This document shows, piece after piece, positions 11,951 to 38,131 of a stretch of DNA of 40,469 bases. Position 1 is the first letter of the stretch, and every line of letters begins with the position of its first letter. The notes under the pieces are model-generated. The model was not told the DNA's origin. It saw nothing but the letters and a program-made list of their open reading frames with translations, and ran no database searches. This stretch comes from a virus, in IMG/VR virus record IMGVR_UViG_3300035698_007296, positions 1 to 40,469 of that record. One strand, written 5' to 3'. The translations under genes and the position numbers were made by a program.

Positions 11951-11960
11951 AAAAACCTCC

Positions 11961-12353: not shown

Positions 12354-12365
12354 TATACCAACCTC

Positions 12366-14093
12366 CTATTTACGCTTTTTACTTCCCAATAGCTTTGAGA
12401 CAGCAGCTTCTACAGTCGATGGCTTCCCGCCGTCTCCAACAGGACGACCATCAATGTTAACTGCAGCTGTTCTAGCCAACTTCCCACCAATGCCCGCTAC
12501 TACTCTCTTTTGCATACCAATAAACTCATCCACTTCTGCTGGACTTACTGGTTTGCCTTTGAGTTCTTTTGCCATCTCGACAACAACAGCATCGGGAAGA
12601 CGGCTATTAACAAGCTTATCAGCAACCATTGACTCTGTATCTACTGTTGCAACTCTTTCCTCAAGAGCCTGTAGACGAGCAGCCTGGGTGTTCAAAGCTT
12701 GATTAACGTTACTTGCTTGCACTCTTTTACTAAGTGGCATCAATCCACCTCCTACGGTTTGTCTGGCCAAAGAGCCAGGTGTACTTTCTTGCGAAATTGG
12801 AGTTTCGCTTGACATGCCTTCTGGAGTAAACGAATCAAATGGCTTAGCATCCTCATCGGTTTCTTTCTTTTCTTCTTCAGGTTTTTCTTCTGTTTCTTCC
12901 ATAACAGCGCCATAAACAGATTCGAGAAGTGAAACAACTTTCTCTAATGGATACTTGTTAGGGTCTTCAGGCTCGCCGTATAGTTCTTCAGCAATACCAT
13001 CAAGCTTAGCTACCTTGTCATCGCCCACTTCAGAATCTGGTAGCATACCCTTTGCAAGTTCTCCAGCAAGCCGTTTAAACCAAGACTTACCAAACTTCGG
13101 TTCTGTCTCTTCTTGGTTTTCAACTGGCTTTGGCTCTGCTTCAGCATCTTTAGTTTCGTCCATAATTGGTTGTTCCATCTTAGGGTCCTCTTCAGCAGCC
13201 ATTAATCTAGCCCCCATTGCGGTAGAGATAGATGCAGAAAGTGCTTTTGCAAGTATTCTTCCGTCTGCAGCAGGGAACGTAACTAAATCCATGCTGTCAA
13301 CTCTTTCGATAACAGTTACTTTGTTGTTTGTGTCAAGAGCTCCAGTAGCATAAATAGACATGCCTGGAAGCTCTACCTGTTGATCTAACATAGAGTCAAT
13401 AAGATTTCGTCTAGCTGGGTCTGTAATCCATACAGAACCATAGACAGCTCTTTCTGCTGGGTCCCACATTGCACCCTTAACAAAGCCAACGTCATTACCA
13501 AAGATAGCTCCAGCTGGAACTACGTCATCAACGTGGTTCTCAATTTCGCCGTACTTACCTTTGAATACCATGACTCTAACAGGCTTGCCTTCAAAGAGAC
13601 CTTTTTCAACAGCTCCCTTTAGTGCATCTGCGCTCCAGATCTTTCCATCAAGAGCCTTACCAGCTGCAATAAGCCTAGCTCTATAAACTCCAGCCTTAAC
13701 AGAAGCTTGAAGTTTTCCTTGAGAGAAAACTGGTAGATTACCGAGAGGCGGAGTAGAGGCAATACTATCCATCAGTTTGCCAAAATCAGCCTGTCCTTTT
13801 TTAGGAGGCTTATCTCCAACAAGCTCGGAGAGGTATTTAATTGCTTTTACTACTTCTTTCGGAGGTTTCTTCAAACCCTTTAAGGACTTAAGAATTTCTC
13901 CTAGTGCCTTTATAGAAATTTGTGTTCCAGTCTTAGCTTGAGCGTCCAGCAAGGCTTTGAGTCTTTTGTTAATCTTTGCAAGTTCTTTAGATTGTTCAAC
14001 GCCCTGAAGTAGTGAAAAGATCTCTCCAATTTCTACTGCGGCTAGAAGCAAGGTTCTCATCTGGTTTCCTGCTCTTGTACTAGGGTTTCCCAT
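12366..14093 (-). CDS. Prohead protease fused to scaffold
   Basis: ATG at 14093 behind a perfect GGAGGTGAT site, the first gene of the late operon. Residues 1-160 are helical and Lys-rich. Residues 165-285 match phage head-maturation serine proteases: His187 (IENHVDDVV), Ser246 (ELPGMSIYATG, like the family GLSI.A.G) and Asp269 (SMDLVTFPAADG, like the family DLVT.PA.G). These would be the catalytic residues. Residues 300-460 are acidic and Glu/Lys/Pro-rich, and 480-575 are helical with a basic tail, which is typical of scaffolding. Protease and scaffold on one chain is common in phages. It would organise the procapsid and then cut the scaffold and capsid arm. Confidence 0.82.
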   Translation of the reverse strand: MGNPSTRAGNQMRTLLLAAVEIGEIFSLLQGVEQSKELAKINKRLKALLDAQAKTGTQISIKALGEILKSLKGLKKPPKEVVKAIKYLSELVGDKPPKKGQADFGKLMDSIASTPPLGNLPVFSQGKLQASVKAGVYRARLIAAGKALDGKIWSADALKGAVEKGLFEGKPVRVMVFKGKYGEIENHVDDVVPAGAIFGNDVGFVKGAMWDPAERAVYGSVWITDPARRNLIDSMLDQQVELPGMSIYATGALDTNNKVTVIERVDSMDLVTFPAADGRILAKALSASISTAMGARLMAAEEDPKMEQPIMDETKDAEAEPKPVENQEETEPKFGKSWFKRLAGELAKGMLPDSEVGDDKVAKLDGIAEELYGEPEDPNKYPLEKVVSLLESVYGAVMEETEEKPEEEKKETDEDAKPFDSFTPEGMSSETPISQESTPGSLARQTVGGGLMPLSKRVQASNVNQALNTQAARLQALEERVATVDTESMVADKLVNSRLPDAVVVEMAKELKGKPVSPAEVDEFIGMQKRVVAGIGGKLARTAAVNIDGRPVGDGGKPSTVEAAVSKLLGSKKRK

Positions 14094-19723: not shown

Positions 19724-20154
19724 CAATTGTAGTCTTTGACCAACCTCCAAGAAAGGGCAACTCCCGCATTATCGCTACACGCGGTAAGGGCGGGAGACCC
19801 TTTTTGCCTAAATCAAAGAAGGCACAAGCATACGAGAAGCATTTCAAAGAACAAACAGAACATATGGGATCACCAATGCTTGGAGGTAAAGACAAACTTC
19901 TTATCGTAGAAGGCTCAGCATTCTATAAAAACAAGTTCGTTGCAGACCTATCAATAGAGCTAGTCTTGGATTGTATGACTAAATCAGGTATTATAGTTGA
20001 TGATAGATATGTAGTCAAGCATAATGTTGATAAGAAATGGGATAAAGAAAATCCACGGGTTGAGTTAGTAGTAAGAGAAATTGATGAGAAGGAGTACCAA
20101 TGGGCGACGGGGATAATGTCAAATACCTTGCAGAGCAAAAAGCAGAAGAAGTAA
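19669..20154 (+). CDS. RusA-like Holliday-junction resolvase, variant active site
   Basis: ATG 19669 with GAGGGG 8 bases upstream; it overlaps the previous gene by 55 bases. The 161 aa have the RusA length and order: N-terminal strand and Lys/Arg-rich loop (KGNSRIIATRGKGGRPFLPK), then VADLSIELVLDCMTKSGIIV, then DDRYV and a final strand PRVELVV. In RusA as I recall it the catalytic set is DxDNxxK plus a later Asp. Here Asp93 and the Asp111/Asp112 pair are kept. The second Asp is Ser95 and the Lys position is Val99. It may be inactive, or use Glu97. Resolution of branched DNA before packaging is the expected role. Confidence 0.72.
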   Translation: MEGKNEHGETGATVLREVTIVVFDQPPRKGNSRIIATRGKGGRPFLPKSKKAQAYEKHFKEQTEHMGSPMLGGKDKLLIVEGSAFYKNKFVADLSIELVLDCMTKSGIIVDDRYVVKHNVDKKWDKENPRVELVVREIDEKEYQWATGIMSNTLQSKKQKK

Positions 20155-20681
20155 GACTAGAAGAGATAGCAAGTAAACTTACAGATAAACAGCGCAAGTT
20201 TGTTGAAATCTATAAGCTTGGACAAGTGCACCCAAGAGTAGCAATGAAGGAAGCTGGGTATGCACAGAAGACCATTGACCATGAAGGCCCAATTGTCTTG
20301 CTAAGAAACGAAAAGGTCAAAGCTTATATTGAAGCGCTAAGCGATACAAAACTAGAAGCTATTGTTGGGTCAATCAAAGCTCAGTTTCTACGTCTTGAAT
20401 ATAGTGTGGCTATTGCATTAAAGACTGTAACAGATCTTGCTAGGGATGCCCAGGATGAAGGGGTCAAGCTAAGAGCAGCTAAGGCCATTCTAGATCTAAG
20501 CAAGGGTATCTTGATCGCAACAATACCTCAGAAACGTATGGACTTCAGCTTACTTATGCGAGACATCTATAAAGAGGCTGTTGATGAAAGAAATAAAGTC
20601 TCAGACGAACAAGAGCCGTTCTTAGAGTTAGAAGCGACACTGGAGGAAGAAGATCCCACAGATAACGCTGCCTCAGCATAA
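20100..20681 (+). CDS. terS: Terminase small subunit
   Basis: ATG 20100 with GGAG 5 bases upstream, overlapping the RusA-like gene by 55 bases. Residues 27-85 carry the typical small-terminase opening KLTDKQRKFVEIYKLGQ followed by an HTH-like segment (RVAMKEAGYAQKTIDHEG) and LLRNEKVKAYIEAL. The middle is a long helix for oligomerisation, and the C-terminus is acidic. It would recognise phage DNA and load it onto the large subunit encoded directly downstream. The 193-aa length is normal. Confidence 0.85.
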   Translation: MGDGDNVKYLAEQKAEEVRLEEIASKLTDKQRKFVEIYKLGQVHPRVAMKEAGYAQKTIDHEGPIVLLRNEKVKAYIEALSDTKLEAIVGSIKAQFLRLEYSVAIALKTVTDLARDAQDEGVKLRAAKAILDLSKGILIATIPQKRMDFSLLMRDIYKEAVDERNKVSDEQEPFLELEATLEEEDPTDNAASA

Positions 20682-20730
20682 AGAGGAACTTCTTAGGATA
20701 TGTGATCCAGTTGATGGCGTTCTTTACTGG

Positions 20731-22140
20731 ATGACAAATTACTACAGAACCTTTGATAAGCCCAAAGGTAGAGTAGCCCTTTGGCCTGGGTGGAAGTTTC
20801 TACGCAGCTATGTAAAGGAGCTTCAAGGCTTAGACCATCAAAATGAGCAGCATAACATCCTAGTAGAAAAGTCACGCGATATGATGATCACGATTACAAC
20901 TGCTGGCTTTATGCTATACTCAGTTCAGTACGTCCCAGACTGGTCAGGTTTTGTAACTTCTCGCAAGCAAGCAGAAGTAGACGATGGTGGAGATAACTCA
21001 ACTCCTGACTCTATCTTTGGCATGATGCGCTTCTCATGGCAACAGCAAGCAGGATGGACTAGAGCACCCTTAGGCTTCACCCAGCTGAAGATTAGGAACC
21101 TAGAACCAGGAATGAACAGCTATGTAACAGGAGAGTCTGCAAACCCCTCAGCTGGCCGTGGTAAGTCAGTTACATTTAAGTATGGGGATGAGTTTGCATT
21201 TGTTCCACAAAGCCATAAGGTACATGCTTCAATGTCTGGTGGTAACTATAAGACACTTCTCTATTCAAGTACTTCTAACTTTACCGGCAACGCCTTTTAC
21301 GATATACGACATAAGGAAGACTCTGGTTTTGATATTCTAACTTATCACTACTCGCTGCGTCCTGGAAGAGATGGCGCATGGGCTGAGAAGATGAAGAAGA
21401 AGTACTCGGATCTTATTTGGGCAACTGAATATGAGATGAAGTATGAGTTTACAACTGAAAGAAATGTATATCCACGTTACTCGCCTAAAGTTCATGTTGT
21501 TCCTTTCGAGAACCTACCGACTGACGGTGAGCCTGTTATTACATTTGATGATGGATCTGCTACTCCTGGCGCTATGTACTTTTGTAGAAAGAAAGAAGAG
21601 ACGCTATGGGTCATTGATGAGATATACGAAGCAGGAATTCAGGTAAGGCTCCTAGACAGCCAAAGAGATGCTGGTGATAAAGATTGGGTAATGCTAGCAA
21701 AAGGGTTATGCAAAAAACATAATGTAGACCATACAGAAGTAACAATAGTTCACGGACCTGAATCATCCTCTAGGAGAGGGCATTCCAACACTGCTATGTT
21801 ATTTGCCCTAGAGGGCTTCCCTAACTTTGTTGTTGACGATAGAAAGCAGATGAGAATTAGGATTGTAGACAAACTTATGATACACTCAGATACGCAAAAG
21901 CCGCGCTTATTAATAGGCGATACTTGCCCGTATCTAATATGGGAGCTACCAAGGTATGAACGAAAAATGATCAACGGACAGATTACTGAAACTCCTAAGC
22001 AAGGAAACGATCATGGCTGTGATGCCTTGGCTGACGTTGCTCAGTTCCTGTTCCCAGACATAATGAAAGAGGAACAAGAAGTCTCAGCATGGTCTATGGA
22101 CCCGACTAGCTGGGAAACTGAGGGGGTTATCGGAGAATGA
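20731..22140 (+). CDS. terL: Terminase large subunit (ATPase/nuclease)
   Basis: The coordinates use the first ATG, which has no ribosome binding site. The same frame is open upstream to 20632, and an ATC at 20653 has GGAGG 6 bases before it, so the true protein is probably about 26 residues longer. The deviant Walker A is LVEKSRDMMIT (44-54). The Walker B with catalytic Glu is YGDEFAFVPQ (Asp153-Glu154), and the coupling motif is SSTSN. The nuclease domain has Asp273/Asp274 (VITFDDG), IDEIYEAG, Glu344 in HGPESS, and Asp431 in DHGCDALADV. It drives DNA into the prohead through the portal encoded next, and cuts the concatemer. Confidence 0.88.
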   Translation: MTNYYRTFDKPKGRVALWPGWKFLRSYVKELQGLDHQNEQHNILVEKSRDMMITITTAGFMLYSVQYVPDWSGFVTSRKQAEVDDGGDNSTPDSIFGMMRFSWQQQAGWTRAPLGFTQLKIRNLEPGMNSYVTGESANPSAGRGKSVTFKYGDEFAFVPQSHKVHASMSGGNYKTLLYSSTSNFTGNAFYDIRHKEDSGFDILTYHYSLRPGRDGAWAEKMKKKYSDLIWATEYEMKYEFTTERNVYPRYSPKVHVVPFENLPTDGEPVITFDDGSATPGAMYFCRKKEETLWVIDEIYEAGIQVRLLDSQRDAGDKDWVMLAKGLCKKHNVDHTEVTIVHGPESSSRRGHSNTAMLFALEGFPNFVVDDRKQMRIRIVDKLMIHSDTQKPRLLIGDTCPYLIWELPRYERKMINGQITETPKQGNDHGCDALADVAQFLFPDIMKEEQEVSAWSMDPTSWETEGVIGE

Positions 22141-24311
22141 AAAGCAGTCCATTTGAAAGTCAAAAGGCAATGGAAATTGCACTCAGAGAAGGAATCAAGA
22201 ACGGGGATCTTAACTCTGAAGACGTAGTATTTTACTCTATGGTTAATAGACTCACTGCTTCAACTAGGTCGATTCCTGTACCAGTTGGATCAGTTACTAG
22301 CGACTGGGGAACTGGTGGTACATCTGCTGTAATGCTTGACGAAGCTGGCAGAGGGCAGATGTATAGAGACTCTCGTAGAATCGTCAGAGATGACTCAATG
22401 GCTGGAAATGTGCTCATGAAATACATGATGCACGTATCTGGTCGTGGGTTAAAGATCTCACTTAAGCCAACGCTTGATGAAGAAGGAAAGCCAGTACCAC
22501 ATAAGAAAGCAGATCTATTAGATGATATTTATCCAGATGGTGCAGCAGAAGAAACAGCAAGAATGCTTATTGCTCAAACACTAACTAATGGTAGTATTTT
22601 TGTTCTACATCTTCCGCTTGACTCCATGTTCAGAGAGAAGGTTAATGACTTTGAAACAGTAGGCTATCCACAAATGAGAGCTATTCTTCCAGATCACGTA
22701 AGGAAGATTGTTCACTCTGATAGCTGGTCTTTCACAAGTCCTCCTTCACAATATCAACTGTCTACTCCGTTTAAGAAGATCTTCCCTAACGGAATTGTAC
22801 AGGCTGATAATATGACCCACCTAAGAATTTTCCAGGAATGGAATGATGGTATCTGGGGCTTGTCTCTCTTCTATAGATTTAACAAAGAAATTATGCGTTA
22901 TGTTGATTGGCTTGAGCAGAGAGCATTCAAGGCTAGAGCAGACAACTTAGTGTATTTGTTTAGAATGAGAGAAGGAGCACAGAGCGGAAAGAAATACGAA
23001 CTTCCTGATAAACCAATGATGATTGACCTTAATGCCCCTAATGAGGACGTTAAGGCCGTTGGACTAAACACTGGCTCTGGTAGTGATGCCAGAGGTGGTG
23101 ATGGCTATGAGTTCCGTCTTAGGTGTGCTCAAGCTGTTCATTTGCCAGAACATGAAGTAACAGAGAATGCTCAATACGCAGCACAGATCGGTAAGTTTGG
23201 ATTCCCGACAAGAATGTACGAATACATTCAAAACAACCTTGATGGTGCCCTTAAGCGTGTCTTCGCTAAGACACTTGGCGTCCCGCCTACTGAAGTAATG
23301 CTTGAATGGCCAAGAGTTGACACAAGAGACAGGGCTCAGATCGTAAGTGAAGTTACTTCTCTTGAGAAAGATCACGACATTTCAAAGGCTGAGGTACGTA
23401 GAGTACTTAGCTATGACGACAGAAACAAGGATGAGATTAACCAGGAGCTTAGCGATTCAATGTCGATTAATCCTGCTGGTAGTGGATCAATGTTCGGTAT
23501 GCCAGATAACTCAGGTATGCCATCAGGGTTCTCTGGCCTAGGCGATATTGGTAGTGCTGGTGGAGCATCTCCATCACCTGCTGGAGCAAATCCACAACCT
23601 CAGCCAAAGACAGCTGAGCCTAGTATCCCAGGACTAAGAATGTCTATGCCTGCATCTTACTGGCCAAGACTCTCTGCATCAATTGATCCAGAATCATTTG
23701 CTGGAAAGCTAAGAACGATGGAAGCTATCTCTGACTTTGGAATGAACTACGAAGTAATCGTAGATACTATTCCAGAACCAGGATTGCTTACGCTCGCTAC
23801 AGTTGGAGCTGACTATGGATACGCATCAGAAGGTGCTGCTATTGTTGGCGGAATGGATGAGAACGAAGACATCTGGATTGTTGGTGAAATGACATTCAAG
23901 AGAGTTCCTAGCGCTCAGTGGGCAACAGCATTTGGCTATGCACAAGAACGTTATCCTTCAATCAAAGAAGTATATACTGGTAGCGACGAACCTGAGCTAA
24001 CAGACGAGCTTAACAAGAACGGAATTAGAGCTACTGCAAAGCATCTTGGTGAAGACAGAACAAAGTTACTCATCAGTGCATTCCTGGATAACCATAAGAT
24101 CTTTATTCATCAGGATTGTGTTGAGCTTCTTACAGATTTGTTCCAGGCCGCAGCAGAGTCAATCGGCGGAATGGATTCAACTAAGTCAAGAGTAGATCAT
24201 AAGGATGCATTCCGGTACTTAATGATCGGCTTACTGGAGTCGTCAAAAATGATTGAATCAATCGGTTCACCTGAGGGCGGAGAACTCATAGAATCACCGG
24301 AGGCAGTATGA
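22137..24311 (+). CDS. Portal protein with C-terminal terminase-type nuclease domain
   Basis: The ATG overlaps the terL stop (ATGA). Residues 60-440 read as a portal: MYRDSRRIVRDDSMAGNVLM, a MRAILPDHVRKIV strand, MTHLRIFQEWNDGIWG, and a long stem helix (PTRMYEYIQNNLDGALKRVF). Residues 445-530 are a Gly/Pro/Ser linker. Residues 538-700 add a second domain with TerL-nuclease motifs: Asp559 (VGADYG), Glu584 (IVGEM), Asp617 (TGSDEPELTDEL) and Asp687/Asp690 (DHKDAFRYLM). All metal ligands are present. At 724 aa it is longer than most portals. The ring it forms is the DNA gateway; the nuclease part is unexplained. Confidence 0.82.
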   Translation: MKSSPFESQKAMEIALREGIKNGDLNSEDVVFYSMVNRLTASTRSIPVPVGSVTSDWGTGGTSAVMLDEAGRGQMYRDSRRIVRDDSMAGNVLMKYMMHVSGRGLKISLKPTLDEEGKPVPHKKADLLDDIYPDGAAEETARMLIAQTLTNGSIFVLHLPLDSMFREKVNDFETVGYPQMRAILPDHVRKIVHSDSWSFTSPPSQYQLSTPFKKIFPNGIVQADNMTHLRIFQEWNDGIWGLSLFYRFNKEIMRYVDWLEQRAFKARADNLVYLFRMREGAQSGKKYELPDKPMMIDLNAPNEDVKAVGLNTGSGSDARGGDGYEFRLRCAQAVHLPEHEVTENAQYAAQIGKFGFPTRMYEYIQNNLDGALKRVFAKTLGVPPTEVMLEWPRVDTRDRAQIVSEVTSLEKDHDISKAEVRRVLSYDDRNKDEINQELSDSMSINPAGSGSMFGMPDNSGMPSGFSGLGDIGSAGGASPSPAGANPQPQPKTAEPSIPGLRMSMPASYWPRLSASIDPESFAGKLRTMEAISDFGMNYEVIVDTIPEPGLLTLATVGADYGYASEGAAIVGGMDENEDIWIVGEMTFKRVPSAQWATAFGYAQERYPSIKEVYTGSDEPELTDELNKNGIRATAKHLGEDRTKLLISAFLDNHKIFIHQDCVELLTDLFQAAAESIGGMDSTKSRVDHKDAFRYLMIGLLESSKMIESIGSPEGGELIESPEAV

Positions 24312-27264: not shown

Positions 27265-27273
27265 TAGGAAGAT

Positions 27274-29940
27274 ATGACTGATAAAATTGATAAAGGTATC
27301 TATGATGGTAATCCTAGCTATTCCGGCATGGTCTTCAAACCAGAATATGGTACTATTGATTTTGGTAGTGGGTACGAAGATTTAGACCCAGCTATTAAAT
27401 TAATGATAGATGGATTGAACCTATCAGTTAGCGAAGCAATAACCTCTCGTGATCGTCAAAGAGTCGATTTTCTTGAAAGCACCAGATTCAGTGTTATGAT
27501 GATGAAGAGCCAGTATCCAGAAGCTATTGAGTATCTAGATATAATTCTTAAGGCAATAGATGACGACATCGAGAAGGCTAGAAAAGAAGCAGAGCTTGGA
27601 TATGACTACGATATGCCTGAGGTTGCTCCACCAACAAGCATTATCAACCCAGAGACAAATGCATTTGATGTAGCACTGTCTACTGATGAGATGCTTAATA
27701 GAGATAGAATACCAACAGAGATGTCTCTTCCGACAGACGAAGAAATGGATGCAGATCACCAGCTTAGAGACATTGTTAGTGCCTATCAGTATCCAAACAA
27801 TAACAACCTTGGAAGAATTATTGAGTTCTATAACCATGTAGATACAAGACTGACTGAAGCAGAAACCACCAGCGATGAAGAACGAATGCTTAATAATGCT
27901 AGTAAAGAATATTTAAGCTCACTGCTTCTTAAGGCATGGAATACAATAGAATGGAATCTTGTGCCTCAAGAACTGAAAGAAAAGGCTGAGTGGCTTACGA
28001 AGAACCGTGTTAACGAAGCAACTGCAGAGCACTTTATCAACGGAGATATTGACGAAAACTTCTCAACTGAGAATAAAATAGCTATGGCTAATCAGATTAT
28101 TGAAGAGCTCTCTCCGTCTCGCTCTCTTGGTATTCTTCAAGTAGACTCAGAGCTTGGACATATCAAAGAATTAATCTTTCAAGAAACAATGCAGTTCTGG
28201 AGCTCACTTAACTCTCAGCTAGCAAATGGGTATCAAGATGAAATCAGAACAATTATTTCTGACCAAGTAGACCAAGTGGCTATGGAAGCAGCAATGAGAC
28301 CATCTAGCGGGATTACTACCTATGCTCAGTATTTGCCTGAAGCCCTTGATAAGTCTACAGCCAACGAGCTAATAAGAAACCTAAGAATTTCAGTTACAAC
28401 AAGGATTAATCTGTTTGCAGAAAACGGAGATCTATCAGCTGGTGCACTTGAAGGTATCCCATACTCAACAAGGCATACAGACCTAGTAGCAATTGGAAAA
28501 GAACAACTAAGAGAGAAGTATGGGTATAAAGGCTTTGAGATGTTCTCTGAGCGTGGCTGGCTTCCTTACTTTGTACAAGTAACAGTAGTCAATACTGCTA
28601 TTAATAGTGTAAGAAATCTATCTGATAAACTTTGTGACGAACTGGAGAAAATCGTAGACGACTCAATTGGGCTAACGCAAAACGATCTAACCAAATTAGT
28701 CCATAATGGAATAATAGAAATAGTAGATTCAGTTGACGATGCATTGCATGAAGCTGTTATGAAGTCTGCAGGAGTCCAAGAAGTCTGGGATACTTTCTTC
28801 TCATACCTTAACGAGATGCAGCTATTTAACCAGAAGTTCTACCTCCAGATGTTTAATACAGCAAAGGACGTTGCAAGTGCTGTTGTAAACGGAGCATTCC
28901 GCCCACTAGGTGCAGCAAGACACGCAGAAGTTGTAAGACGCTATAATGTAGCTACAGCACAAGCACAGTCCGCAGCAAGGGCCGGTAATCTTGAAGCAGG
29001 ATACAATAAGTATCTAGAGGTCAATTTCTTTCAACAACAAATACCACGCCTTAATACTGGCGGAGAGATTGTTCTAAGCAAAGGGCTCGTGCCTGGACAG
29101 AACTATGGAGATGCACTTTCGGCTTGGGCAAGTAAGGCAATAGCGTCTGGTAGAGTTGCAAGCCTAGATGAATTTTACTATGGAGAATGGAGAGTACTAA
29201 GAGAGAAATTTCTGCCTGACGCAATGGACTCTTATCAAAGGATACACGGCGAAGTAATGCCTCCTGGCAATCAGCAAGACTTCAGGGAACAATATCTAGC
29301 AACTGGACACGTTGATATATATTCTCAGACAAAAAAGGATCTTGAGGCAATGTTTGAAGATCTTGATTATGTAAAGAACCCAATGCGTGGGACAAGAATG
29401 TTTGAAGACACTCTCTCTGCTTTCATTCCTGGGGTAGGAGCTGCTGTTGCGAGCATAAATGACATTGCAAATGTTATTATGACAGATGCAGTCCCTGAGC
29501 TTAGGTCTTATATCCCAGAAGAGTACGAAGAGGACTGGGCTCGTTTACAGAGTAGTTACTATATAAGATTCAGAAACGGGGAAGACGTTGATATGGGTAA
29601 AGAGAACATAGCGTTTTACGAGGCTCATGGCATAGATCTTAATGCTATTCTCTCTGCTATACTTGGAAGAAAGATAGAAGATGGCAGCTATGAACAAATA
29701 GGGGTCCAACAGGAAGAGAGCCAAGCAATGGTCCTAATGGTCAGCTATAAAAATATGATACTTGATATTTTTGAAAACAATGAAGACGCTTCTTCCGCTG
29801 CTTTCCTTCTTGAGGTGCTCGGAGATCTGGTATATGACACAGACAATTTAGATGAGAAAAGAACAATAGAAGCTACATACGAGTGGCTACTAACACATAA
29901 GGTTCTCCCATTAGTAGAGGTTCAAGGAGGGAGTTTATAA
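27274..29940 (+). CDS. Large helical hypothetical protein, 888 aa
   Basis: ATG with AGGAAG closely upstream, nine bases after the previous stop. Nearly all predicted-looking structure is alpha-helical and acidic, for example IEYLDIILKAIDDDIEKARK and DEERMLNNASKEYLSSLLLK. A Tyr/Arg-rich stretch lies around residues 540-600 (HAEVVRRYNVATAQAQSAAR), and a short hydrophobic Ala/Gly segment (SAFIPGVGAAVASINDIANV) near 715. No catalytic motif is visible. Its stop overlaps the start of the 2400-aa gene (TAATG). It is probably part of one assembly with its large neighbours. Confidence 0.72.
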   Translation: MTDKIDKGIYDGNPSYSGMVFKPEYGTIDFGSGYEDLDPAIKLMIDGLNLSVSEAITSRDRQRVDFLESTRFSVMMMKSQYPEAIEYLDIILKAIDDDIEKARKEAELGYDYDMPEVAPPTSIINPETNAFDVALSTDEMLNRDRIPTEMSLPTDEEMDADHQLRDIVSAYQYPNNNNLGRIIEFYNHVDTRLTEAETTSDEERMLNNASKEYLSSLLLKAWNTIEWNLVPQELKEKAEWLTKNRVNEATAEHFINGDIDENFSTENKIAMANQIIEELSPSRSLGILQVDSELGHIKELIFQETMQFWSSLNSQLANGYQDEIRTIISDQVDQVAMEAAMRPSSGITTYAQYLPEALDKSTANELIRNLRISVTTRINLFAENGDLSAGALEGIPYSTRHTDLVAIGKEQLREKYGYKGFEMFSERGWLPYFVQVTVVNTAINSVRNLSDKLCDELEKIVDDSIGLTQNDLTKLVHNGIIEIVDSVDDALHEAVMKSAGVQEVWDTFFSYLNEMQLFNQKFYLQMFNTAKDVASAVVNGAFRPLGAARHAEVVRRYNVATAQAQSAARAGNLEAGYNKYLEVNFFQQQIPRLNTGGEIVLSKGLVPGQNYGDALSAWASKAIASGRVASLDEFYYGEWRVLREKFLPDAMDSYQRIHGEVMPPGNQQDFREQYLATGHVDIYSQTKKDLEAMFEDLDYVKNPMRGTRMFEDTLSAFIPGVGAAVASINDIANVIMTDAVPELRSYIPEEYEEDWARLQSSYYIRFRNGEDVDMGKENIAFYEAHGIDLNAILSAILGRKIEDGSYEQIGVQQEESQAMVLMVSYKNMILDIFENNEDASSAAFLLEVLGDLVYDTDNLDEKRTIEATYEWLLTHKVLPLVEVQGGSL

Positions 29941-32900
29941 TGCCCAGTAAATTTACTAATTTTCCAGCGATGAGCGTAGATACAAACTCTAGAACGAAAG
30001 AGCTTATGACTGATGCTCTTAAACAAATAGAGATTCAATACGACGTTTACATGGGGCGTTATAAGGATGAACCAGATAAACAGAACTACCTTCTTGTTGT
30101 AGCTGGGAATATGGCTGCTAAGTGGTATCAAATATTCTACCAGCTTCAAGATACAAAGCTTGCAGACTCTCAGAGGTTTGGTCGCTGCAAAGGTTCAGTT
30201 GGAGTTTCAGAAGAAGAATGCGTAAGAATGATGTATGAGTCTGAGATTAAGGGCGAATTTGCGCTTATGGATCAAACTCTACAAAGTAGCCAAGCGCAGT
30301 CAACAGATGCTCTTCAAGGACTATCTGACGATAAAATGATGACTCCTTCGCTGTGGATGGTAGGCTTCTATCAGGTGAAAGGGTGGTATGACTTTTCAAC
30401 ATACGCCAGATTCAGACTGAACATTCCAGACAGGATTTTTGACTCACTTGTTATTCCTATTTTTGACGACATCTATATGGCAGAACTCAGAGAGCAGTTC
30501 GCAGATACAAGAGAGATTCTTCCATCAAGGCTGAGAGAGATTATTGATGAGAAATATGTACTTGCGATACAATATCTCGATGCTAAATGGAAAGCGTTTC
30601 TTAAGGGACAACTTGATCCGATAGAGTACGAACTCGGAAGACTTAATGACATTAACATTGAAGTTGCAAAAGCAATATCAGATATGCGTAATCGTGGATT
30701 CGCTGTTTACTCTGACGATACTTATGGCCTTGCAATGGAATCTGCAGACACAGACCTAAGCATACCTGAACTAATGCTTCAGCGAAAAGAAGCTGCTTCT
30801 GAAACAAATAATACTATTGTACAGCCATACCTAAGACGAGATGCTTTATACATGGTTGACTTTGACTTCACCTGTGAAGATGTACAGAATAGACTAGATT
30901 ACCTTGATTCAATCAACTCTCTAATCCCACTGTATCCTCCAACTCAAACTGGAGTTGGAGACCACGATGCGATAGACAAGAGGCAAACATTTGAAGATAC
31001 ATACAGAATGCTTTACGTGTACAAGCAATCTTACTGTACCGAGCTCTCTACTAATACTTACTCTACTGCACCAGTCTTCTTTGAACAGAAAGCAACGATT
31101 AAAGATAACGAATTGTCAACAGAGGACTTTCCAGTAGCGAAGCAATCTTATCACGACTACCTTGACCTTGTGTGGGAACAAGCAGAGCATGGAGACTTTT
31201 TAGCAGATAATGTTATGTCAGGAATTGATTTAACACGAGCTGCCGGAGAGAAGTTCCTTAGCCAAGAGATTGAGAACCTAAGGACAGGTCACCTGCAAGC
31301 AATACATGATAGACTAGATGCATTTGTATCTGCTCCGTGGAATGGGCCTAAGATTGCAAATAACAGAGGTGTCTTTCTTCCGTACATTGGATTTGATGAA
31401 TGCGAAGATCTCTTCAAACTATGGATGGCAAGAGAAGTGAGAGCTGTATTCTCATTAATGCAAGACTACGTTGAAAATGGAGAAGAGAACGCAGCCGGAT
31501 ATACGCCAACAACTGTAACAATAATTACAATGCTAGACGAAATTAAGAGAGAAGCTTATGATCCGTATCTAGATGCCTATGGTGATGAGCTGTGGGGGTC
31601 TATTAAAGATACTCACTGGGATGCTTACAGAAGTACTATGCTCTCATATGACGGCATAGAACAGCAAAGTTTCAATCAATTTTATTATGATATTGCGATG
31701 CACGAAGCAGACCTAGCTAAAGAGACAGCGTTGCAGGATATGCTAAGAATTACATCAAGAGAAGTGGCTGGTCCTCCAGGATCGACAATGATGATTCTCA
31801 GTCAGGCTAAATATATGCCCTCTCTAGATAAAACGATTACTCAGGCTGATGCATCTGCTACTGTCGTTGGCTTTATAAGAACATCTGCTGACTCTAGTGA
31901 CTACATAGAAGGACAGCTCTATGCTGATAACATTAGAGGAGAGTTCCATAGCGGGACAATCTTTATTAACGGAGAAGTATTCGGCGGTATTACAGTAGAC
32001 TTCCAGAAGACGATTCAAGACTTTGAAGACATCTACAAAACAGGAAGAGTTCCCTATGCGTCAAAGGCAGATGTTGTTGAAGCAGTTCAGACAATGCAGT
32101 TACTCCAGCCATTAGTTCCGACTGATGTTGATTCAAGGCTTAGGTTTGAAAAGATCTTTGGCGCATACTGGGCCGAGCTTATGCATATGTCACCGTCGGG
32201 CTTTGGCTCTATGAGTGCAGAAGATATTCAAGGGTGGATCACATTTCAAACAGGTGTTATGCTAGGCAAGTACAAAGACCTATTAGACATAGCACAGAGA
32301 GTTTCCGCTAATCAGTATAATCTTGGAATAGGAGCTGCTGAAGACGCGATAGACAAACTTGACGAAGTAAACGATATGGCTATGTGGGCTAACGCATCCC
32401 TTGACGAGAAATCTAAGCAGCTTACTCAAGCTGTCGTCAACGCAGAAGAGCACCTTGTTAGTTGGGCTGATGTAGCATCTAATATAATGACTACTAGGGT
32501 TAACGTTATAAACTCCCATCTACATATGGCGGTCTCAGACCAAGTTCCAGTCCCAGATGATATAATGTCTCAGGCAAATGATATTGTAAAGATGAATTTC
32601 AATCTACGAACAATTGGATGGCCTGATCTTTCAGCTGCTCTTGAAGAACTATTAAAAACAATGAATGAGAATGTTAATCTTCCAACAGTCTCTCATCCTG
32701 TCAGTATAGAGGCTATTGAACCAAAGAGAGTAGAAGCAGGGCTATTTACTCCTTATGTTAAGTTTAATGGTGTCCGTCCTGGGAAAGCATTTCACGTCGA
32801 ATCGTTTACTGATGAAAGCCTAGAGGTAATAAGAGAGTATGTAGAAGAAAGGACCAATGCAGGAAGGGAGCTTTCGATAGAAAGTAAGGTTCATGGATTC

Positions 32901-35900
32901 AGGGCTTTGCTTGAAGCGCGTAATGGCGTCCCCATGATCTTCCTCGAAGGCATTGATAGAAACATGTCCGATGTTTACAAAAACATTGCTAGAGACCTTT
33001 CAATTGGCCCTGACTGTGTTCTTGAAGCTGAAGTTATGCAGTCTGTAGCTGGGGTTCTTTCACCTAGGATAGCGGAAGGTAGGTTTACAAGAAACGAGAT
33101 TGATGAGTCTGTTGCCGTCGCAGTGGTTTTTGATTGCCTCTCTCTTGATGGTGAGTCATTCCACAATAAGCCATATATTGAACGAAGACAGGCAATGGCT
33201 AAGTACTTTGCTGGGTCAACATTAGAATTTGTTACGAAGATGCCCAACAAGTGGTGCTCATCTTTTGAAGAAGTTAGGGCAGAAATACAGCAAGTAGAAA
33301 AACTATCTGGAAGCGAGGGCGCTCTAATTAAGACGAAAGATCATATGTACACATTAGAGAAAGACTCTGACGATTGGGCTAAGGTTAAAGCAAAGATGAG
33401 CCTATTCGTTACAGTACTTAAAGAGAACAAGCTAAAGACTGGAGCTATTAGTTATACTTGTGGTGTTGCATATGACATGAAGGCCGATATTAGAAAGTCA
33501 GATATTGTAAAGCTTAATGGCAAGACCTACGTAAGTATCGGTGCTACATTTGGTACATCTATTAAAGCGAAGAAAGGAGATCGTCTTCAGGTTGCTATTA
33601 CAGAACTGCTTGAGAATAAACAAGAAAAAGAGATCTTCTATAGATGGCAAGACCCAACTGTTATTAAAGCAGTGCCTAGAGAAACTGATGGTCTTGGCAA
33701 AGCAATTCAAACAGGCCATATTCTTCAGGCATCTATTTCTGAGCCATACAGACAGATCAATAAAAAGATACAAGAGATAAGAGATGCAACTACAGTAGCA
33801 GAACTACTTGTCATTAAAGAGTGGCTATGGGAACAAATCTCTGATCTTAACTTTACAAGACTGACTGATCTATGTACATTCGCACTTGGTCTTGCAATGG
33901 ATGCTTTGGGTCAAGCAGAAGAATCGCACCTTGGGGCTCTTGGCTTTGGTTACTCCGTTGAGTTTGCAACAACAGTCCAGTATAACGATCTTGTTAGACT
34001 CTACGAAGGAATTAAAGTAGAGATCAATACTGAAGGTGGAGAAAAACTAGAGAAGCTTATTAATCTTGCTAGAGCAGCTGAGCTTAGGTCTCAGAGAACA
34101 GAAGACGCAAGTCTGAGACAACAGTTCTTAGATCTTCAACGAGACGTTAATCTAGATATTCAACATCTTGGAGGGCTAGAAGGATTCACTCATTCAGGAT
34201 TGTTAGAAACATACAGTATGCTCACCACTAAGGCTTACTCTATAGCTACTAGATGGACAGCTGCTGAGGTTTCACAAAAAGATGCTATTCTTAAAGAAGC
34301 TACTGACTTAAGAACGTTTGTCGCTCAGCTACAATCTCAATCTTATAGTTACAATCTTGAGTATACAGACGAAATTAGATACATCCATGAAGCGCTAGAC
34401 ATAGTTATTGGGCCAGAAGATACGATTGTTTCATGGTCTAGAGTTGCAACTTCCTTGACTGATTATGATATTCGTCTTGATGTTGCAGAATCTGACATTA
34501 TGAAGCTTGAGGCTCTATATATGTCAGGTAAGAGCGGAAACTTAGATCTGTTGCAAGACCTATCTATTGGAGCATTTGACTTTATTCCAGACATGACTCC
34601 ATTCCTGCCTCCTATTAACCAGCCAGATCTAACACCAATTGTAGTAATAGACAAGTCACCTGATCTTGTAGCAATGCCGTCTAGCATTTTTGGTCTTGAC
34701 GCTGATCTGATCAATCGAATTACAGCGGTTAATGAGAAAGCAACCAATGCAAGGCTGAATAACTCAGAAAGTCAATGGGATATGCTAATTGATGCAAGAT
34801 TAGATGCAACAATGCTTTGGCAAACAATTGCAACAAGGCCATATGCTGACAGAATCACTGATATGATTGATGACACCCTTGATAAGCTAGAGAAAATACT
34901 AGCCGCCAAAGAAAATGAAGGTCTTAATCCAGACCTAAGCATCAAGCTATTTGATTTTAGTGGCCTAGCGAAGGGCCAGCTAAGCGTACCTACGTTTACT
35001 GCAGCAATAACACCAGAGCAATTTAAGACACAGTTTGAAGCAGCTACTTCAAAGGACTCTGCAAAAGCAGTGAGGAACTCATTAGAGACACTTGCTAACC
35101 AATTGACTAAAGCGCAGACACTGGGATTCCAAAGTTGGATAGGAGCGCTAAGAGATAAAGCAGAAATGCAGATAGATAGATGGAAAGCACTCTGGGATCT
35201 TTACAATTCATGGCGAGTTTCAGGCGGTATGTGGAGAAGGCTTGCAGCTGCTCAATCAGAGACAGAGGCATTAGTAGCCAGGGCTCTTGCTAATCTAAGG
35301 ATTCCATTCTCTGCTGAAGAAGGAACTAATGAGATCATTAGGCACTATAACAGCTATGTTAAAGGCCAGCTTCCATTTACTCCTCTACCTGACTCTCCCG
35401 AAGGTGAATCTATAGAAGATGCTAGACAGAGAGTATTTGATGGAAGAGTAGTAAACAATATGCAAGATTTGATACTAATGGCAATGAACTTTCTAAACGA
35501 AGGCGGAAGTCCAGATGATTATAGAGCCTTTAGAAACTACTCTCCATTCGTATTACTAACAGAAGGATTAATGGCAGATATTGATGTTCTTATAGAAGAC
35601 AGGATTAAAGCCTATGAGACATGGGATGACATGGACAATGCTTATCCACTTGCCGGTGAAGGAACTATTACGTTCAATGCTGTTTGGATTGACCCTAGAC
35701 ATAAAGATATGTATGAATTCAATGGTCGCTATGCAGCTATAATAAAGTCCGAATTAGAAGCTGGTAATAGAGTGCTTGTTGAAGAAGTTGGCGGTGTATC
35801 AATACTCCATGCTTCTGTTACTGCTGCTGGTGACGTAACTGGAGAGCCAGGTGTATACATAGATCAAGTATACAACAGCATAGAGTCTACGCTTAACATG

Positions 35901-37142
35901 GACCCAATGATGGCTGAGAATGGTGTCTATGGCGGAGCGTATGCTAACAACGAAGAACAGGTAAAGAATACGTTAAGAGGTATAGTCTCTATGCCAGGAG
36001 ATGGTGGTTGTGGTGGTTTCTACATAGGAACAGATACTGATGGATCTCCTCTCTTCGTAACAGCTGCTCATTGTCTTGATAACGAAACTCTTGGTGACGC
36101 AATAAAGATGACTACACTGACCGGAGAAGTAATTGAAGGTCAAATTGTCTGGAGAGGAAAGTATAAGGTACCAGTAGATGTCTATAACGCAGAAAATGCG
36201 GATATGGCAATTATTAGAGTAGCTCTGTCAGGCGAAATAGCGAAGACAGAAAATATGACTAAGTTAGAACTTGCCTATGAATTCCCTGATGCTGCAATAG
36301 CCATTTCTGCAAACATGGGCGAAGGCGATCTTATTGTTAGAAATGGTCCTGCTCGATACAACATGTTTGATATGTACTCCAGTAGAGACAGAGGACGGAA
36401 GGGCTACTCAGGGTTCCCTGTGATCGACTCTAATGGTGCTGTAGTCGGTATCTGGGTGCAGTCCTCACCAATGTTCTACGGAGAAATAACTGAAGAAAGA
36501 AGAGGGTATGTAGTCCCTATTGACGTTATTAGAGACATATTTAGAATTGCTGGTCTAGAATGGGATGAAGTTGGGATGTTAAATCAGGAGCAGATGTCAG
36601 TGTTAGGCGCTAGCGTTACACCTTCATTGCTTAATGAAGCTCCAACAAAGCTACCTCTTGCTGGGCGATTGGTATCATATGACGACTTAACACAAAGACT
36701 GTCGTTTATGAATGGTGATAGAGAAACTGGTTTTACTATTGTTGTTGATGGCAAAGCAGACGAGCCAAAGCTAACGTCTTATGTCACAGACGCTAGACTT
36801 CCAGTACATATGACAGATAAACCAGATACTGATATGAACCATCTTGATACAGTAATGTTACTTCCGTCACGTATAAGGGACGATAAGAGCTACTACGAGT
36901 TCTATCTTACGTTCCAACAGAATGTAAACCTTAATGGACTGTGGGCTATTAGTAAAGAAGCTGCACAGGAATACAACAAGGAAGCATTCTTGTTCAAGAT
37001 GAAAGATGAGACTCCGTTCTATATGAGAGACGATCTTAAGCACAAGGAAGAAAGGGCAACGCTCAAAGATTGGGAGAAGCCATCTATTCAAGATATTACA
37101 AGCTTTTTATCAAGACGACCATTGATTCAGGAGAAGAAATGA
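29940..37142 (+). CDS. Giant multidomain protein with ligase-like and trypsin-like domains, 2400 aa
   Basis: ATG with GGAGGGAG upstream. Residues 1-930 are mostly helical and unrecognised. Residues about 940-1265 read as an ATP-dependent DNA ligase: motif I ESKVHGFR with nucleophile Lys983 (the usual KxDG Asp is His985), motif III VLEAEVM (Glu1031), motif IIIa VVFDCLSLDG (1062-1071), motif IV SEGALIK (Glu1126, Lys1131) and motif V WAKVK (1146-1150). An OB-like part with KKGDRLQVAITELL follows. Residues 1270-1990 are helical. Residues 1995-2210 are a chymotrypsin-fold protease: His2044 (FVTAAHC), Asp2088 (NADMAIIRV), Ser2157 (KGYSGFPV). The C-terminal 190 residues are unassigned. It may be packaged and self-processed. 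Confidence 0.82.
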   Translation: MPSKFTNFPAMSVDTNSRTKELMTDALKQIEIQYDVYMGRYKDEPDKQNYLLVVAGNMAAKWYQIFYQLQDTKLADSQRFGRCKGSVGVSEEECVRMMYESEIKGEFALMDQTLQSSQAQSTDALQGLSDDKMMTPSLWMVGFYQVKGWYDFSTYARFRLNIPDRIFDSLVIPIFDDIYMAELREQFADTREILPSRLREIIDEKYVLAIQYLDAKWKAFLKGQLDPIEYELGRLNDINIEVAKAISDMRNRGFAVYSDDTYGLAMESADTDLSIPELMLQRKEAASETNNTIVQPYLRRDALYMVDFDFTCEDVQNRLDYLDSINSLIPLYPPTQTGVGDHDAIDKRQTFEDTYRMLYVYKQSYCTELSTNTYSTAPVFFEQKATIKDNELSTEDFPVAKQSYHDYLDLVWEQAEHGDFLADNVMSGIDLTRAAGEKFLSQEIENLRTGHLQAIHDRLDAFVSAPWNGPKIANNRGVFLPYIGFDECEDLFKLWMAREVRAVFSLMQDYVENGEENAAGYTPTTVTIITMLDEIKREAYDPYLDAYGDELWGSIKDTHWDAYRSTMLSYDGIEQQSFNQFYYDIAMHEADLAKETALQDMLRITSREVAGPPGSTMMILSQAKYMPSLDKTITQADASATVVGFIRTSADSSDYIEGQLYADNIRGEFHSGTIFINGEVFGGITVDFQKTIQDFEDIYKTGRVPYASKADVVEAVQTMQLLQPLVPTDVDSRLRFEKIFGAYWAELMHMSPSGFGSMSAEDIQGWITFQTGVMLGKYKDLLDIAQRVSANQYNLGIGAAEDAIDKLDEVNDMAMWANASLDEKSKQLTQAVVNAEEHLVSWADVASNIMTTRVNVINSHLHMAVSDQVPVPDDIMSQANDIVKMNFNLRTIGWPDLSAALEELLKTMNENVNLPTVSHPVSIEAIEPKRVEAGLFTPYVKFNGVRPGKAFHVESFTDESLEVIREYVEERTNAGRELSIESKVHGFRALLEARNGVPMIFLEGIDRNMSDVYKNIARDLSIGPDCVLEAEVMQSVAGVLSPRIAEGRFTRNEIDESVAVAVVFDCLSLDGESFHNKPYIERRQAMAKYFAGSTLEFVTKMPNKWCSSFEEVRAEIQQVEKLSGSEGALIKTKDHMYTLEKDSDDWAKVKAKMSLFVTVLKENKLKTGAISYTCGVAYDMKADIRKSDIVKLNGKTYVSIGATFGTSIKAKKGDRLQVAITELLENKQEKEIFYRWQDPTVIKAVPRETDGLGKAIQTGHILQASISEPYRQINKKIQEIRDATTVAELLVIKEWLWEQISDLNFTRLTDLCTFALGLAMDALGQAEESHLGALGFGYSVEFATTVQYNDLVRLYEGIKVEINTEGGEKLEKLINLARAAELRSQRTEDASLRQQFLDLQRDVNLDIQHLGGLEGFTHSGLLETYSMLTTKAYSIATRWTAAEVSQKDAILKEATDLRTFVAQLQSQSYSYNLEYTDEIRYIHEALDIVIGPEDTIVSWSRVATSLTDYDIRLDVAESDIMKLEALYMSGKSGNLDLLQDLSIGAFDFIPDMTPFLPPINQPDLTPIVVIDKSPDLVAMPSSIFGLDADLINRITAVNEKATNARLNNSESQWDMLIDARLDATMLWQTIATRPYADRITDMIDDTLDKLEKILAAKENEGLNPDLSIKLFDFSGLAKGQLSVPTFTAAITPEQFKTQFEAATSKDSAKAVRNSLETLANQLTKAQTLGFQSWIGALRDKAEMQIDRWKALWDLYNSWRVSGGMWRRLAAAQSETEALVARALANLRIPFSAEEGTNEIIRHYNSYVKGQLPFTPLPDSPEGESIEDARQRVFDGRVVNNMQDLILMAMNFLNEGGSPDDYRAFRNYSPFVLLTEGLMADIDVLIEDRIKAYETWDDMDNAYPLAGEGTITFNAVWIDPRHKDMYEFNGRYAAIIKSELEAGNRVLVEEVGGVSILHASVTAAGDVTGEPGVYIDQVYNSIESTLNMDPMMAENGVYGGAYANNEEQVKNTLRGIVSMPGDGGCGGFYIGTDTDGSPLFVTAAHCLDNETLGDAIKMTTLTGEVIEGQIVWRGKYKVPVDVYNAENADMAIIRVALSGEIAKTENMTKLELAYEFPDAAIAISANMGEGDLIVRNGPARYNMFDMYSSRDRGRKGYSGFPVIDSNGAVVGIWVQSSPMFYGEITEERRGYVVPIDVIRDIFRIAGLEWDEVGMLNQEQMSVLGASVTPSLLNEAPTKLPLAGRLVSYDDLTQRLSFMNGDRETGFTIVVDGKADEPKLTSYVTDARLPVHMTDKPDTDMNHLDTVMLLPSRIRDDKSYYEFYLTFQQNVNLNGLWAISKEAAQEYNKEAFLFKMKDETPFYMRDDLKHKEERATLKDWEKPSIQDITSFLSRRPLIQEKK

Positions 37143-38131
37143 ACTTAGACGAACTCATCTCTGAGCTCTCTGAGCCGATCAGTGAAGCTATTAGTGTAGT
37201 ATTGGAAGCAGCTAGTGCTGAGATTACCCCCTTAGGTGCCCTTATTACCCGTTTAAAGGCATCCAAACTGCAACCTGGGGTAATAGCCCTAAAGGATGGA
37301 ATTGCAACAATTGGTGGAGCCAGTGCATTCTTTATTGGAGTAGGAAATGGTGGGTATTACTTCATTGGTGATCCTAATAATTCAGGCAGAGTTGCAAAGA
37401 TAGAAGGGCATGAAGATATTCCTGTTGAGGCGATCTATACATCTGATAACATGTCGTATGGCTCAGCGAAAGAAAGGTTTAACATACTTAACGGTAGGCC
37501 TGACTTCTGGATATATAAGGTAAGAGATGGATATGAAGACCTAGTTGTTGACTTAAATCCTATTCCTCTTGGTTATTCTGCAGATGATGGCTTTGTTGTT
37601 ATGGGAAGAGATGCATCTCCTGGATATAAAGACAATGGATTACTAACAAAAGCTACAGATTCAATACTAGATCCACAGTGGAGCAATGTTAATTACTACG
37701 GTGGTGCAGGTTACGATGATGTTGGAGCTCCGATAGTAGATGAACATGGTACTGTATCTGGTATTGTTAATGCTTATGTTGATTTGCCTTCAGAGATTAA
37801 GGTGCTTGGTCTTGATATTAATCCTGTAGTTACAGGGACCAGCGTAGAGGACATGAAGAAGGTTCTTCAAGGGTATGGTATCTTTGATTATGGTGGCGAA
37901 GCATTTACTAGAGGTGAAGATGGTAAAGTTCACAGTAGAATGCTAAGAATTATGGCAGAGCTTCACAATAGAAACGTCTTTGAGCAAAGACTAGGCAAGC
38001 CTGATATAACTTCTGATGAAGGCAAGCGATGTGTGGTTGATGTAATTAATCAACATGAAGATAGACAAGACGAGTGGATTGTTATTGAATGCCTTGATCG
38101 CCTAGGTGTTGTTAATAAGTGGGGAGACTAA
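37139..38131 (+). CDS. Probable trypsin-fold pseudoprotease, 330 aa
   Basis: The ATG at 37139 has GGAG 5 bases upstream and overlaps the giant gene's stop (ATGA). Residues 45-215 follow the same strand order as the protease in the previous gene. ASAFFIGVGNGGYYFIGDPN aligns with the His region, RPDFWIYKV (Asp122) with the Asp region, and GYDDVGAPIVDEHGTVSGIV with the Ser region. The catalytic His position is Pro79 and the Ser position is Val195, so it should not cut. It could be an inhibitor, a structural partner or a decayed duplicate. The alignment is mine by eye. Confidence 0.6.
   Translation: MNLDELISELSEPISEAISVVLEAASAEITPLGALITRLKASKLQPGVIALKDGIATIGGASAFFIGVGNGGYYFIGDPNNSGRVAKIEGHEDIPVEAIYTSDNMSYGSAKERFNILNGRPDFWIYKVRDGYEDLVVDLNPIPLGYSADDGFVVMGRDASPGYKDNGLLTKATDSILDPQWSNVNYYGGAGYDDVGAPIVDEHGTVSGIVNAYVDLPSEIKVLGLDINPVVTGTSVEDMKKVLQGYGIFDYGGEAFTRGEDGKVHSRMLRIMAELHNRNVFEQRLGKPDITSDEGKRCVVDVINQHEDRQDEWIVIECLDRLGVVNKWGD

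Follow-up and report, generated by a model that had tools for sequence, protein, structure and literature searches.

A giant virion-operon protein that joins a DNA ligase fold to a probable trypsin-like protease, and the virus ligase family to which it belongs

DNA ligases are usually viewed as replication enzymes that are made after entry of the virus. Fusion of a DNA-modifying enzyme to a virion protein is seen in PHROG 56, 1530, and 13242, in which a methyltransferase is joined to a head maturation protease of the XkdF type. XkdF-type proteases act in the procapsid, as is established for the protease class. For ligases, the available part of a paper on the phage ATP-dependent enzymes (PMC5537653) describes no fusion to virion proteins. 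Polyvalent proteins, found in phages and conjugative elements, are large multi-enzyme chains for which packaging, injection, and an early role in the newly entered cell have been proposed (Iyer et al. 2017, PMC5512222). Their hub domains include a zincin-like MPTase and LPDs. The assemblin-like peptidase of polyvalent proteins is always C-terminal, and it was argued that the proteins carrying it are taken into the procapsid, where cleavage occurs (PMC5512222). On ligases, the same paper states only that 2H domains are not associated with phage RNA ligases, and trypsin is unmentioned in it.

The window analysed here covers an IMG/VR record from environmental DNA in full; the record has 40,469 bases and is linear and possibly a fragment. 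An operon on its plus strand encodes TerS, TerL, a portal-like protein, proteins of 311, 673, and 888 aa, a protein of 2400 aa, and a protein of 330 aa, with neighbouring genes spaced by -4 (an overlap) to 49 bases (Table 1). The initial annotation had placed the 2400-aa gene in a packaging/virion operon, and this is borne out by the TerS, TerL, and portal-like genes that lie upstream on the same strand. The name portal is based on the position of that gene between TerL and the virion genes and on the terminase-nuclease-like tail of its product. The 2400-aa frame, which had been described as one open frame, reads without interruption and is preceded by a strong ribosome-binding site. It overlaps the upstream gene by 1 nt and the downstream gene by 4 nt, as an operon would predict. 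A family match for the 330-aa downstream protein was not found, and comparison with trypsin gave no grounds for reading its gene as a decayed copy of one (BLAST E=0.069, hhalign probability 0.8%), a notion that was therefore rejected. The major head protein of the virus is related (phmmer) to ORFs of four virus loci (L013, L142, L008, and L051) that also encode a giant ligase protein.

Table 1. Features of the window, with positions counted from its first base.
Feature	Coordinates	Strand	Basis
Major head protein	10895..11950	-	PF25209 1.8e-17
Head-maturation-protease-like protein	12366..14093	-	phrog_15531 2.8e-4
Terminase small subunit	20100..20681	+	phrog_51 1e-7
Terminase large subunit	20731..22140	+	phrog_5989 1.2e-6; tblastn to phage TerL
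Portal-like protein with terminase-nuclease-like C-terminal domain	22137..24311	+	Position; phrog_5653 2.6e-4 on residues 555-668
888-aa virion-operon protein directly upstream	27274..29940	+	Weak tape-measure-like match, phrog_32885 0.0012
Shine-Dalgarno AGGAGG	29925..29930	+	9 nt ahead of ATG; read from sequence
Gene of the 2400-aa protein	29940..37142	+	Open reading frame, no internal stop
Residues 1-918, no recognised domain	29940..32693	+	Pfam and retrieved-locus ORFs searched
ATP-dependent ligase adenylation domain, about residues 945-1152	32772..33395	+	PF01068; AF2 model, PDB fold match
Motif I, K983-V-H985-G986, Lys predicted nucleophile, His in the place of Asp	32886..32897	+	Alignment
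Motif IV, GSEGALIK, residues 1124-1131, virus-family signature	33309..33332	+	Motif comparison
OB domain, about residues 1153-1250	33396..33689	+	Alignment with ANMV-1 and relatives; beta-rich in AF2 model
Residues 1285-1984, no recognised domain	33792..35891	+	Pfam and retrieved-locus ORFs searched
Probable trypsin-like serine protease domain, about residues 1995-2212	35922..36575	+	PF13365, phrog_9683, triad alignment, weak fold match
His2044 codon, predicted catalytic (TAAHC)	36069..36071	+	Position check
Asp2088 codon, predicted catalytic	36201..36203	+	Alignment, position check
Ser2157 codon, predicted catalytic (GYSGFP)	36408..36410	+	Alignment, position check
Residues 2213-2400, no recognised domain, without XkdF	36576..37139	+	Pfam, local profile, retrieved-locus ORFs
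330-aa protein, coupled downstream gene	37139..38131	+	ATGA overlap with the 2400-aa gene

The initial annotation had read the motifs of an ATP-dependent ligase and a catalytic triad in this chain, and the residues it named are all at the right positions (K983, H985, E1031, F1064-D1065, E1126, K1131, W1146, K1148, K1150, H2044, D2088, and S2157). For the ligase, the profile search and structure prediction that it had proposed yield the nucleotidyltransferase fold. PF01068 matches residues 973-1150 with E=1.8e-16 (60.9 bits against a Pfam cut-off of 26.2), and PHROG 114 matches with E=6e-8. The AF2 model of residues 919-1284, built with 28 virus relatives in the alignment, has a mean pLDDT of 82 and a pTM of 0.78. 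The PDB structures that it matches best are those of DNA ligases, with archaeal, human, and mycobacterial LigD ligases at the top (best E 3.2e-17, probability 1.00); in all, 197 entries match at E<=0.001. The predicted nucleophile K983 sits in an invariant K column of the alignment, and motifs III, IIIa, IV, and V follow in order (E1031, FD1064-1065, E1126-K1131, and K1148/K1150). The adenylation domain is followed by an OB domain, missing from the initial annotation, whose pattern 'IGxTxxTxIK...GD...YxWxxPxVI' is common to the 2400-aa protein and a ligase of the virus ANMV-1. By profile, alignment, and model, an ATP-dependent DNA ligase fold followed by an OB domain is present in the 2400-aa protein.

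One defining ligase residue is changed, as the Asp of KxDG is not present and H985 takes its place. This substitution, which had been taken to leave activity open, is real, and inactivity is weighed below; it is, however, less alarming than it first seemed. Among the large-chain relatives with a recognisable motif, the position is Asp in 30 of 44, Asn in 12, and Ser in 2. KxHG is also the ordinary motif of T4 Rnl2 (T4 RNA ligase 2) and of the trypanosome RNA-editing ligases. Since KxHG is normal in Rnl2-type enzymes, His985 does not on its own imply a dead enzyme.

About 850 residues C-terminal of the ligase, alignment and profile matches point to a probable trypsin-like domain. PF13365 (Trypsin_2) matches it with E=7.8e-6 at 27.1 bits, 0.5 bit short of the cut-off of 27.6; PF00089 (Trypsin) matches with E=5.7e-4 at 20.2 bits, below the cut-off of 20.6; and PHROG 9683, 'protease', matches with E=1.4e-4. 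H2044, D2088, and S2157 align with small trypsin-like proteins of other virus contigs. The triad has the order, spacing, and context (TAAHC, GxSGxP) of S1 proteases, and the positions of C2024 and C2045 are likewise those of S1 enzymes. The AF2 model of the protease is poor (pLDDT 39.5). The listed PDB matches of this model are trypsin-like in 50 of 50 cases, mostly HtrA/Deg proteins including DegS (best E 1.2e-3); since trypsin-like proteins served as anchors of the alignment, the PDB match is supportive and not independent. The earlier claim of a trypsin-like protease is probably right: the triad is in place and aligned and Trypsin_2 matches, whereas the Pfam scores are below cut-off and the model is of low confidence.

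A Pfam search of the 2400-aa protein found no further domain beyond the ligase and the trypsin-like one. Residues 1-918 gave no Pfam match at E<=1, and residues 1285-1984 gave no trusted one (ParM_N only, weak and below cut-off). Among the ORFs of all retrieved loci, there were no relatives of the N-terminal, middle, trypsin-like, or C-terminal parts of the chain.

The ligase, in contrast to these parts, has many virus relatives. When IMG/VR was searched with motif IV as a back-translated pattern (GSEGAxxKxxDxxY), 36 loci were obtained. A SEGA-type ligase within a long ORF is encoded by nearly all of them; L003, L026, L009, and L034 were set aside as not being ligases of this type. The ORFs that are complete in their locus are mostly 900-2000 aa long, with 19 of 23 having at least 800 aa (median 1147). 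A control scan of IMG/VR with a relaxed motif, in which neither GS nor Asp was required, retrieved 122 ligase ORFs. A ligase in a large chain is not unique to this virus, as 46 of these 122 ORFs are chains of at least 600 aa. Ser precedes EGA in motif IV of all 46 large chains and of 2 of 66 complete small ligases (median 314 aa). The family set is biased by motif-based sampling, although the 2400-aa protein and ANMV-1 were both found without the motif. The 2400-aa protein likewise has GSEGA at residues 1124-1128 in a chain of more than 600 aa.

In the tree, all virus proteins are apart from nine cellular ligases (support 98/95; 100% of 200 bootstrap trees). The 2400-aa protein falls in a clade with L006, L018, L021, and L033, all of which bear XkdF, and with L010 (support 97/96). 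Its branch is long (1.8-2.1 changes per site), the longest or nearly so in the trees. By motif and tree, then, the 2400-aa protein is a divergent member of the SEGA virus ligase family. Within the retrieved sample, the pairing of a ligase with a trypsin-like domain was seen only in this protein.

Annotated phage genomes contain a single relative, the 866-aa protein of ANMV-1, whose hosts are uncultured archaea. The motif scan of assembled genomes gave 47 loci, most of which are chance matches or unrelated proteins and 13 of which are true members. The members are in genomes labelled Methanosarcinales, Methanophagales, Thermoplasmata, Hecatellales, and Omnitrophota, labels that come with the binning of virus contigs and are not host proof. 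Scans of viral contigs for the whole protein, the portal, and the ANMV-1 ligase, with eight-residue exact patterns that were too strict, gave no relatives, and neither did a two-sequence profile scan. The giant virus ligase family is widespread and apparently undescribed, as no description of it was found in the open-access literature.

The relatives combine the ligase with other enzymes. Among 35 of them, Pfam places in the same chain an XkdF prohead protease in 10, a Dam methylase in 8, a metallo-beta-lactamase fold in 4, NUDIX and UDG in 2 each, and a C5 methylase and a PAPS reductase in 1 each. The LigD-type 3'-phosphoesterase TIGR02777 (NCBIfam) is found in 6 relatives, and a local profile made from virus phosphoesterase-like segments matches both the LigD phosphoesterase region and about 30 members. 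Most relatives have a pol-beta-like NTase motif N-terminal of the ligase. The order of domains varies: NUDIX-ligase-UDG-Dam in L030; Dam-ligase-XkdF in L021, L033, and L005, the last with intein domains too; ligase-Dam-XkdF in L013; methylase-ligase-XkdF in L018; and ligase-XkdF in L006. In most XkdF-bearing relatives, XkdF lies no more than about 15 residues from the C-terminus. Portal, terminase, and minor head (MuF-type) proteins are among those encoded upstream of the relatives' genes, and head maturation proteases and major head proteins are among those encoded downstream. None of the family-typical partners (pol-beta-like NTase, phosphoesterase, XkdF) was found in the 2400-aa protein: an extra LigD-type domain or pol-beta-like NTase was searched for and is absent, and neither Pfam nor a local profile detects Peptidase_S78_2 (XkdF / S78 prohead protease) at the C-terminus. 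The absence of all three marks the protein as a stripped, fast-evolving member of the family.

Together, the ligase-XkdF fusion and the gene position imply that the relatives' chains are cleaved after entry into the procapsid. The 2400-aa protein would similarly be synthesised alongside the head and packaging proteins, taken into the procapsid, and processed by proteolysis, the trypsin-like domain possibly doing the cutting step done by XkdF in the relatives. On ejection it may be delivered with the genome, and the ligase/OB module may then seal the incoming DNA at nicks or ends. We judge the evidence to be evenly poised on whether these are giant DNA-end-repair proteins that are packaged, processed, and delivered with the genome in tailed bacterial and archaeal viruses. 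The initial annotation had likewise proposed an injected or packaged protein that repairs or circularises DNA and is cut by its own protease. Of that interpretation, the two enzyme domains, the place in the packaging operon, and the likeness to polyvalent proteins are supported; the notion of a packaged and cut chain gains indirect support from the C-terminal XkdF of the relatives and from the location of their genes between portal and major head genes. The class of architecture, given the 46 large chains, is not unique. The long branch, H985, the missing NTase, phosphoesterase, and XkdF, the virus's own head protease gene, the absence of relatives of the other parts of the chain among the retrieved loci, and the low-confidence trypsin model count against the proposed role. 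With a head-maturation-protease-like protein encoded by a separate gene, the virus does not need the trypsin-like domain to mature its head, and the domain need not be the maturation protease. A more elaborate reading counts the NTase, ligase, and 3'-phosphoesterase, with methylase, uracil glycosylase, and others, as a LigD-like end-joining and repair polyprotein within the virions of many tailed archaeal and bacterial viruses, which would be freed by a built-in maturation protease and would repair or circularise the genome on entry, XkdF being replaced here by a trypsin-type enzyme. We put this forward tentatively and lean somewhat against it.

The operon with its terminase and portal-like genes, and the portal and terminase genes that adjoin those of the relatives, would also suit a protein that acts in the infected cell during packaging, where the ligase would mend concatemer nicks before or during portal-terminase uptake and nothing would be injected. 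However, fusion to XkdF, a procapsid protease, is hard to explain in relatives that stay outside, and separate ligase genes would suffice; we consider such a role unlikely. A low probability is also given to a dead ligase that serves as a DNA-binding or structural virion module, with only the protease active. The His that replaces the KxDG Asp, the extreme branch length, and the loss of the partner repair domains speak for it, but Lys983, Glu1031, Glu1126, Lys1131, Lys1148, and Lys1150 are all kept, and the Asn of the relatives and the KxHG of Rnl2-type RNA ligases weaken the argument from His985.

Delivery into the cell could serve counter-defence instead, the ligase repairing restriction or CRISPR cuts and the trypsin-like domain destroying host proteins. 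The early action ascribed to polyvalent proteins (PMC5512222) and the Dam, C5 methylases, and UDG of the relatives are in keeping with this. Against it, the 40,469-nt record holds no pointer to a host target and the known polyvalent peptidases are of other folds (PMC5512222), which leaves it quite improbable. Chance resemblance, that is, motifs scattered in a long virion protein that has no real enzyme domains, might be invoked for the protease, with Trypsin_2 just under its curated cut-off and a poor AF2 model, but the triad has the right order, spacing, and context, and for the ligase the E-values and fold match refute it. For the protein as a whole, it is very improbable.

If the proposed packaging, processing, and delivery of these proteins is right, the widespread fusion of ligase and end-processing domains to a prohead protease suggests that a finished DNA-repair kit is carried in the capsid. 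This provides a testable mechanism for genome circularisation and for survival of restriction or damage at entry, in viruses of uncultured archaea as well. The 2400-aa protein adds that the cutting module may be exchangeable.

Compared with known systems, the ANMV-1 protein (AJP62006.1 in KP703175; 866 aa, 'ATP-dependent DNA ligase') has the same ligase/OB type, with 25% identity over 214 aa (E=4e-12), and its gene directly follows the portal gene. Unlike the 2400-aa protein, it carries a pol-beta-like NTase as well as a LigD-type phosphoesterase motif, and it has neither a protease nor a trypsin-like domain. Bacterial LigD, an enzyme of non-homologous end joining, shares the combination of ligase and 3'-phosphoesterase with the virus family, though not with the 2400-aa protein; of the 3'-phosphoesterase, primase-polymerase, and ligase that define LigD, the latter has the ligase only. 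Moreover, the polymerase of LigD is of the primase type, in contrast to the pol-beta-like NTase motif and virion proteases of the virus proteins, and the virus ligases form a group of their own in the tree. The methyltransferase-XkdF proteins of PHROG 56, 1530, and 13242 match the relatives and their neighbours; they contain no ligase in the matched stretch and do not match the 2400-aa protein, which is neither a LigD nor an XkdF protein. The closest clade in the ligase tree, L006, L021, L033, and L018, consists of giant chains like the 2400-aa protein, with the ligase in the C-terminal half of the first three and mid-chain in L018. These carry XkdF, and several also carry Dam or another methylase, whereas the 2400-aa protein has the trypsin-like domain instead. 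The analogy with polyvalent proteins drawn in the initial annotation is supported, as a very large chain of 2400 aa carries unrelated enzyme domains, a ligase and a trypsin-like one. By this likeness, we call the 2400-aa protein a variant of the polyvalent kind, which may likewise be packaged.

Intein-domain matches were found in two members of the family of giant virus ligase proteins. In the Dam-ligase-XkdF giant protein of L005, one of the IMG/VR virus loci encoding relatives of the window protein, Hint/intein-splicing and LAGLIDADG domains lie inside the chain, at residues about 943–1299. Multi-enzyme chains occur at two further loci of this kind. The L016 chain contains a C5 cytosine methylase, more methyltransferase-like stretches, and the ligase, and the gene before it encodes a 1264-aa protein that matches both MuF-type minor head proteins and DNA pilot proteins. 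At L030, the next gene after the giant chain encodes a methylase-XkdF fusion. At L013, a head maturation protease fused to a major head protein directly follows the ligase-Dam-XkdF giant protein, and two protease-type domains are thus neighbours.

Features of the window and of loci encoding related ligase proteins.
Feature	Location	Strand	Remarks
768-aa protein	window 7762-10068	-	strongly repetitive Gly/Thr/Ser-rich beta-type repeats
Portal-like protein	window 22137-24311	+	C-terminal domain terminase-nuclease-like
Gene after giant protein	window 37139-38131	+	start overlaps giant-protein stop codon (ATGA)
Giant chain, at least 2277 aa (runs off end of fetched stretch)	L016:4885-11715	+	
NUDIX, ligase, uracil-DNA glycosylase, and Dam methylase, single chain	L030:2816-7021	-	
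Head maturation protease–major head protein fusion	L013:86-2824	-	phrog_15531 and phrog_4523
1166-aa cysteine-rich repeat protein	ANMV-1, L002:5868-9368	+	annotated hypothetical

The head genes of the window are divided between two strands: the major head protein and a head-maturation-protease-like gene are on the minus strand (10895-14093), whereas the terminase and portal-like operon is on the plus strand (20100-38131). The terminase-nuclease-like domain of the portal-like protein is seen as a phrog_5653 match at residues 555–668, and a tblastn match to MT835521 likewise supports it. TerL, the terminase large subunit, is a separate gene directly upstream and has a nuclease-like end of its own. 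The gene after the giant protein is preceded by its own Shine-Dalgarno sequence; a family search with it found no known relatives. The 768-aa repeat protein, for which a family search gave no match, is perhaps a fibre or spike.

In ANMV-1, a virus of uncultured archaea, the ligase gene is immediately followed by that of the cysteine-rich repeat protein.
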